Source of the DNA: an actinobacterium SCGC AAA044-N04
GTDB taxonomy: Bacteria > Actinomycetota > Actinomycetes > Nanopelagicales > Nanopelagicaceae
Length of the DNA: 49,631 nt
Direction: 5' to 3'
Assembly: GCA_000378885.1 (NCBI GenBank)
Contig: KB900465.1
Location: 1 to 49,631, forward strand
Under the pieces are notes generated by a model. The model did not search any database. It was given only the letters and a program-made list of their open reading frames with translations, and was not told the DNA's origin. The position numbers and the translations under genes were made by a program. This document shows positions 48,639 through 49,631 of this stretch, piece after piece (positions within the stretch are counted from its first letter, which is position 1; each line of letters starts with the position of its first letter).

Positions 48639-49543
48639 ATGCGCCAAGAAGATGTCTCACAATGGGTTAAAGATGCCCAAGTAGCCTTTGGCGCCGCTAC
48701 AGATCTAGATTCTCTGAAAGCTGCTCGTTTAGCCCATGCTGGCGATAAGGCACCGATTTCACTTGCATCCAGAACTCTGGGTTCTCTATCTCCGGAAGAA
48801 AAAGCTAGTTTTGGAAAAATTATTGGAGATGGCAAAGCTGCCATTGCCGAGGCTCTAGCGCAAGCAACGCAAAAACTTGAAGCAGAGCGCGACAAGAAAG
48901 TTTTGCTAGAAGAAGTAGTTGATATTACTTTGCCCGTTAATCGCAGACATCGCGGGGGACTACATCCGATTTCAATTATCAAAAATGAAGTCTCGGATTT
49001 TTTCATTGAGCAGGGTTATGCAGTTGCTGAAGGCCCAGAGCTTGAATCAGGGTGGTTGAACTTTGATGCACTCAATATTCCTGCAGATCATCCAGCTCGC
49101 ACAATGCAGGACACATTCTTTGTTGAGCCAGTTGAATCAGGAATGGTGCTGCGTACTCACACATCACCTGTTCAAATTCGCACGATGCTGACTCAGACTC
49201 CACCTATTTATGTCATCTGTCCTGGGCGAACATTTAGAGCAGATGAGTTGGATGCAACGCATAGTCCAGTTTTTCATCAGGTTGAAGGCTTAGTTGTTGA
49301 TAAGGGCATCACAATGGCCCACCTCAAAGGAACGCTGGATAACTTTGCCCGTCATATTTTTGGTCCAGATGTGACAACTCGTCTTCGTCCATCATTTTTC
49401 CCTTTCACTGAACCAAGTGCTGAGGTCGACATATTCTTTAACAATCGCTGGATTGAATGGGGCGGTTGTGGAATGGTCAATCCAAAGGTGCTACAAAGTT
49501 GCGGGATAGATACCGATGTCTACAGTGGCTTTGCTTTTGGAAT
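48639..49543 (+). CDS. pheS: Phenylalanyl-tRNA synthetase alpha subunit, 3' end lost at chimeric junction
   Basis: About 301 genuine residues. The N-terminal coiled coil (residues about 1-85) is followed by the class II core: [51 protein letters not shown] (motif 1 region), [43 protein letters not shown] (motif 2) and [26 protein letters not shown] (motif 3 begins). After Gly301 the sequence should continue with the motif 3 segment but instead reads 25 unrelated residues ([12 protein letters not shown]...) to a stop at 49619. Those bases are antisense to gap, so the true end of pheS and pheT are not in the window. Confidence 0.93.
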
Positions 49544-49631
49544 CATGTTAGTTGCAGCTGCGCGAGCACGGCGTAGATCCTTGTGTGGGAAATCTAAGAT
49601 GACCTGGTCATTTGTGTAGGCGTGAATTGTT
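49537..49631 (-). repeat. Inverted exact copy of gap 27064-27158 at window end (chimeric sequence)
   Basis: Reading the minus strand from 49631 to 49537 reproduces 27064-27158 without a mismatch over 95 bases. The first 7 bases at the junction (TTGGAAT, 49537-49543) also fit the expected pheS coding sequence (Phe-Gly-Met), so they are a microhomology. It interrupts a conserved essential gene at the very end of the sequence. Confidence 0.97.

Follow-up and report, generated by a model that had tools for sequence, protein, structure and literature searches.

An inverted 95-bp contig end that interrupts pheS in an actinobacterial draft genome, very probably an amplification chimera left as a k-mer-length stub

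The chimeric products of multiple displacement amplification (MDA) of bacterial DNA were characterized for Escherichia coli in a study reportedly by Lasken and Stockwell in 2007. In the MDA product of a single E. coli cell, 406 of 475 chimeras were inverted, with intervening sequence between the two parts, arising where displaced 3' ends re-prime on the opposite strand, often through short complementarity, which reached up to 21 bp; the joined parts lay less than 10 kb apart in 337 of the 406 and more than 10 kb apart in 69, with complementarity in only 34.8% of the more distant class (PMC1855051). Single-cell benchmarks cited by the MISAG paper put the rate of misassembly at about one per Mb (PMC6436528). 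MDA need not cause contig ends of the kind described below, because SPAdes assembled MDA-amplified acI cultures into single long contigs (PMC5301498).

The window analysed here, 49,631 nucleotides in length, is one whole contig (C20 below) of a draft genome whose 23 contigs add up to 1,286,658 bases, at 87% completeness. By pheS its closest named relatives are BS11 and REEB492, with Candidatus Planktophila versatilis and P. lacus, both represented by complete chromosomes, at greater distance, and the source genome is likely a member of the acI/Planktophila group of freshwater-type Actinomycetota. The sequence of 14 short contigs, 16,435 bp in all, is given as N, and statements of absence from this genome hold for its readable 1,270,223 bp. 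The contig start truncates a gene (1-870 of the window) whose sequence suggests the large subunit of glutamate synthase (gltB). Elsewhere in the draft, a single N occurs at C17:23620 and another at C19:7017, both contigs being otherwise free of gaps, and C23 carries a terminator-like hairpin in two near-identical copies (3190-3232 and 3302-3345; 44-bp alignment, 98%) some 110 bp apart.

The broken pheS and its continuation in relatives

The last 95 bases of the window (49537-49631, forward strand) are an exact reverse complement of positions 27064-27158 (forward strand) in the gap gene, as the first-pass annotation had reported for a partner about 22 kb away. All 95 of 95 positions are identical, the starts of gap and pheS are 22,105 bp apart, and the next base inwards (49536 against 27159) differs. 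Four of the six bases beyond that mismatch agree again, which extends the BLAST alignment to 101 bp at 98%. The copy at 27064-27158 is the genuine source; it lies in an intact reading frame inside the contig, assigned by family search to type I glyceraldehyde-3-phosphate dehydrogenase. A search of the organism's own genome places the 95-bp sequence at these two sites only, and 80 pheS loci of relatives contain no match to it at E 0.01. An exact match of this length arising by chance within 50 kb is, by simple arithmetic, negligible.

Comparison with relatives identifies 48639-49543 (forward strand) as the genuine 5' part of pheS, comprising the first 301 codons and lacking motif 3. The reading frame continues to 49619 and translates, over 48639-49619 (forward strand), into 326 residues, of which residues 302-326 stem from the terminal stub and represent antisense gap, so that pheS does turn to nonsense after Gly301 as had been claimed. 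The match to the pheS profile TIGR00468 breaks off at position 294 of 324, and identity to the pheS of relatives ends at about 49543. The 326-residue PheS against which the same annotation warned is false.

At the junction BS11 reads TTGGAATGGG (protein FGMGLERTLMVRHG) and the window reads TTGGAATCAT. The seven bases TTGGAAT (49537-49543, forward strand) are common to BS11 pheS and to gap, which bears out the proposed overlap of up to seven bases; they are followed by GGG in BS11 and by CAT in the window. GGG is also what follows the position equivalent to 49543 in the 22 relative loci listed, out of 66 matched and 80 searched. Because BS11 has TTGGAAT and then GGG, and because the relatives' identity stops where it does, positions 49537-49543 suit both sources; judged from these alignments, the pheS-derived part can reach 49543, and the seven shared bases can be assigned to either side.

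A comparison of pheS and pheT in related genomes had been proposed as a check, and its outcome is a continuation quite different from gap. BS11 is colinear with C20 in a single run from 49543 down to 23571. Past the point equivalent to 49543 it carries 2,842 bp, consisting of the remainder of pheS and of pheT, and then matches another contig of the draft, C11, up to the last base of C11. The BS11 PheT is 818 amino acids long and scores above the cut-off of TIGR00472. In 80 of the 80 relative loci kept, pheT lies on the same strand and no more than 600 bp from the matched part of pheS. No pheT was found with TIGR00472 in the readable 1,270,223 bp of the genome under study, a search in which 14 of 14 controls were positive, and the 3' end of pheS is likewise missing from this readable part; pheT might sit on one of the 14 short contigs that read as N, of which C1 measures 2,897 bp. 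As its name and its number of contigs (three) indicate, BS11 is an hgcI-clade metagenome bin built from PacBio CCS reads with the Canu assembler (PMC6329791), and therefore represents an independent technology; the main text of the paper on these bins does not use the word amplification (PMC6329791).

Gene order over the interior of the contig is equally informative. BS11 has 22,103 bp between the starts of gap and pheS, whereas P. lacus has about 21.4 kb and P. versatilis about 21.0 kb, in each case on the same contig and strand; for the four remaining genomes among the seven compared the distance is 22,101-22,865 bp on one strand, provided that their gap and pheS contigs are the same record. 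Because spacing and strand match those of relatives, we read the interior of C20 as being in true order and the stub alone as false. The 22.4 kb that separate the two copies (27159-49536, forward strand), colinear with BS11 and in true orientation, would correspond to a hairpin loop of the assembly graph.

One copy length at five contig ends

Inverted pairs were sought in a sample of 497,162 bp, comprising C17-C23 in full and, for C11 and C16, the outermost 40 kb on either side, which favours partners on the same contig and from which chimeras with distant partners could escape. This sample contains five exact 95-bp inverted pairs, one member of each pair forming a contig terminus, and no further 95-bp inverted pair. 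Inverted copies from within the contig itself, all exactly 95 bp long, thus stand at five of the 18 readable contig ends. Besides the end of C20 these are the start of C16 (paired with C16 20760-20854), the end of C16 (381496-381590), the end of C18 (69689-69783) and the start of C19 (3613-3707). Neither end of C11 has a second copy in the searched genome; the 497-kb sample, in which C11 and C16 are represented by little beyond their ends, contains no 95-bp copy of either end of C17, C22 and C23, of the starts of C18, C20 and C21, or of the end of C19.

The same length recurs in C22 (1677-1951), where a 95-bp direct repeat flanks a run of 85 N that is either the assembly's own or masked; this is probably a scaffolding seam one k-mer long. 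Because one fixed odd length recurs at five contig ends and around the N run of C22, 95 is most likely the k-mer length with which a de Bruijn assembler was run. Other papers from the JGI are said to have used k-mer lengths of 25, 55 and 95. One JGI single-cell pipeline ran SPAdes in -sc mode with k of 22, 55 and 95, trimmed 200 bp off contig ends and dropped contigs shorter than 2 kb (PMC10066038); the trimming and the removal of short contigs are both absent in the present assembly. Another single-cell study with JGI sequencing used k of 57, 92 and 127 (PMC7031533), and because other single-cell pipelines use other values of k, our confidence in the explanation preferred below is slightly lower than it would otherwise be.

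The other four ends are mirror images of C20. In C20 the junction at the end breaks pheS and the interior junction keeps gap open, whereas in the other four the frame at the end is open and the frame in the interior is broken. Open frames cross the junction in a YdcZ-type transporter gene (C16 start), a membrane-protein gene without a Pfam match whose product looks sensor-kinase-like (C16 end), a PhoH-family gene (C18 end) and a PknB-like kinase gene with PASTA domains (C19 start). The genes broken inside are, respectively, that of an ABC transporter ATPase, secA, a nuoF-like gene and a crtB-like gene of the squalene/phytoene-synthase family. The reading of every 95-bp stub as the chimeric part was rejected, as the genes across both junctions and the relatives show the reverse for four of the five. 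By the same comparison, at these four ends it is the stub that appears genuine and the adjoining terminal segment that appears falsely inverted: C16:96-20759 (20,664 bp), C16:381591-385624 (4,034 bp), C18:69784-93597 (23,814 bp) and C19:96-3612 (3,517 bp), for a total of 52,029 bp.

Relatives cross the terminal junctions to differing extents. At the C16 start, all nine matching relatives (20 searched) continue across the junction through all or most of the stub. One of 12 crosses at the C16 end, where two more match short of the junction; five of 12 cross at the C18 end, with one more stopping short; two of 12 cross at the C19 start, with six more stopping short. At the interior junction in secA, the secA side is matched by 11 of 12 relatives, no such match extends more than eight bases into the 95-base part, and the microhomology measured against these relatives is 5-8 bp. 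Local matches show the terminal segment reversed for the C16 end against contig C93 of relative G004, and for the C19 start and the C18 end against BS11; the comparison covered these three segments.

Pieces of the interrupted genes are found at other contig ends. The secA profile is matched over positions 1-642 on C16 and over 631-787 at the first bases of C18, in a search whose control was positive in 10 of 14 genomes and negative in the four archaea. The two secA pieces occupy C16:381546-383486 and C18:4-468, and C18 seems to start at the breakpoint. The start of C18 and the secA breakpoint of C16 are probably neighbours in the real chromosome. In the draft of relative G003 two differing secA matches occur (C81:3182-3691 and C8:6347-6858, with 89% and 80% identity to the secA piece studied here), perhaps because its bin mixes two strains.

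At the end of C22 a NuoF family protein begins at profile position 25 of 410, and by sequence it seems to continue the frame that ends at DYEAHG in C18, a piece without a Pfam match of its own. BS11 has no match to C18 69784-70530 at the nuoF site and continues there with C22 1079-1; this strain may carry extra genes at the site shared by C18 and C22. Finally, C21:17617-17670 forms an exact inverted overlap of 54 bp with C16:20710-20763, with a 4-bp microhomology, AGTT; the ABC transporter ATPase gene, cut off after its start by the false junction in C16, continues at the end of C21.

Origin of the inverted ends

The fusion of pheS to gap is very probably an inverted MDA chimera that the assembler left behind as a stub of length k, with amplification by MDA and a SPAdes-like assembler run at k=95 as the presumed circumstances. 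The first-pass annotation had likened an inverted, microhomology-joined and mismatch-free end to such chimeras or to assembly errors, and the likeness to a chimera gains support from the 95/95 match, the continuation in BS11 and the four sister ends. The second segment is inverted, gap being joined in antisense although gap and pheS lie on one strand both here and in relatives. Both segments come from the same genome and are unchanged, with a single other place in the genome for the copied bases. Complementarity is present at the junctions, at 7 bp in C20, 4 bp in C16/C21 and 5-8 bp in secA. The five loops measure 3.5, 4.0, 20.7, 22.4 and 23.8 kb, two of the five being shorter than 10 kb, a distance that is usual for such chimeras but not obligatory.

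The course of events may have been as follows. Among the amplified molecules, a displaced 3' end in pheS would have re-primed on the opposite strand of gap by way of TTGGAAT. Coverage would drop out just past codon 301 of pheS, and the chimeric join would then possibly be the sole edge leaving the last genuine base. Reads from the chimera would supply the de Bruijn graph with an edge from pheS to reversed gap, closing a hairpin loop; the assembler would walk this loop once and stop at a 95-mer already used, leaving a contig that ends in k=95 copied bases. Where the loop is entered by the true edge, the stub would be false, as in C20; where it is entered by the chimeric edge, the stub would be true and the whole loop inverted, as at the other four ends.

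A chimera formed in library preparation, by transposase tagmentation or ligation, followed by the same step in the assembler, would yield the same contig end and is an unlikely alternative. Bulk libraries are chimeric too, with 184 chimeric reads per Mb in E. coli and 130 in B. subtilis (PMC5794965), but raw single-cell reads are several-fold richer in chimeras than bulk reads (PMC5794965), and the five cases at hand are all inverted, span no more than 24 kb and join parts of the same contig (in a sample that favours same-contig partners), which is near the pattern of intramolecular MDA chimeras.

Less plausible still is a real inversion or inverted duplication in the cell's chromosome with breakpoints in pheS and gap. 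The clean junction with seven shared bases is what microhomology-mediated joining in cells would be expected to produce, but a simple inversion is ruled out by the intact gap and by a gap-pheS order, strand and spacing like those of relatives; compared with its kin, C20 has no reversed gene order between 49543 and 23571. A duplication would need a cut at exactly 95 bp, the length also found at four other contig ends. A real inversion would moreover destroy pheS, which is considered an essential gene, and the doubt expressed on that ground in the first-pass annotation is shared here. An invertible element was also considered, and was ruled out since there is no second flanking inverted repeat, C20 having a single pair only.

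An explanation that needs no chimeric molecule, whether an error of the assembler alone or a metagenome bin composed of several strains, would fit a stub length equal to the k-mer length deduced from C22 and the other ends, but it is hardly credible, as an edge in a de Bruijn graph requires reads, the pheS/gap overlap of just seven bases is far under k, and a strain mixture would demand five independent inversions, each having a contig end as one of its breakpoints.

Use as a marker and comparison with known systems

An MDA chimera walked as a hairpin loop thus remains the preferred reading, and the end of C20 is likely an artefact of a known kind that is uninformative about the biology of pheS. 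On balance we lean toward a broader view, in which inverted stubs of length k are a fingerprint of chimera hairpins that can be read without access to sequencing reads, the direction in which a loop is walked is essentially arbitrary, and public single-cell genomes as a class carry many false terminal inversions. If this is true, false terminal inversions in single-cell genomes could be found and flagged by the signature alone, through a screen in which every contig is reverse-complemented and its final 200 bases are compared with the result. Such a screen comes with a warning, that the error may sit inside the contig rather than at its visible end. Databases should receive neither a false 326-residue PheS nor a false loss of pheT. 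The present genome holds four false inversions in 1.29 Mb, and these, at 3.5-24 kb, would mislead studies of gene order, operons and inversions as well as gene counts, with secA in two pieces. Among titles and the openings of abstracts, we found no description of k-long inverted contig-end stubs as a marker, which is a weak negative.

Three described phenomena come closest. The inverted MDA chimeras of E. coli (PMC1855051) resemble the C20 junction in being inverted, formed within the same genome, joined at short shared sequences and free of mismatches; they differ in that the C20 pair lies 22.4 kb apart and is known from the assembly alone. The misassembled inversions addressed by ccSAG (PMC5794965) are likewise inversions, relative to a reference, in contigs from amplified single cells, whereas those described here are each marked by an inverted contig-end stub of one fixed length, and neither reads nor a reference are needed to detect them. 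Palindromic MDA reads (PMC13265396) are a further case of inverted chimeric molecules that disrupt assembly; there it is long-read assembly that is spoiled, whereas here the genome is bacterial, the assembly looks like the product of a de Bruijn method, and the loops span 3.5-24 kb.
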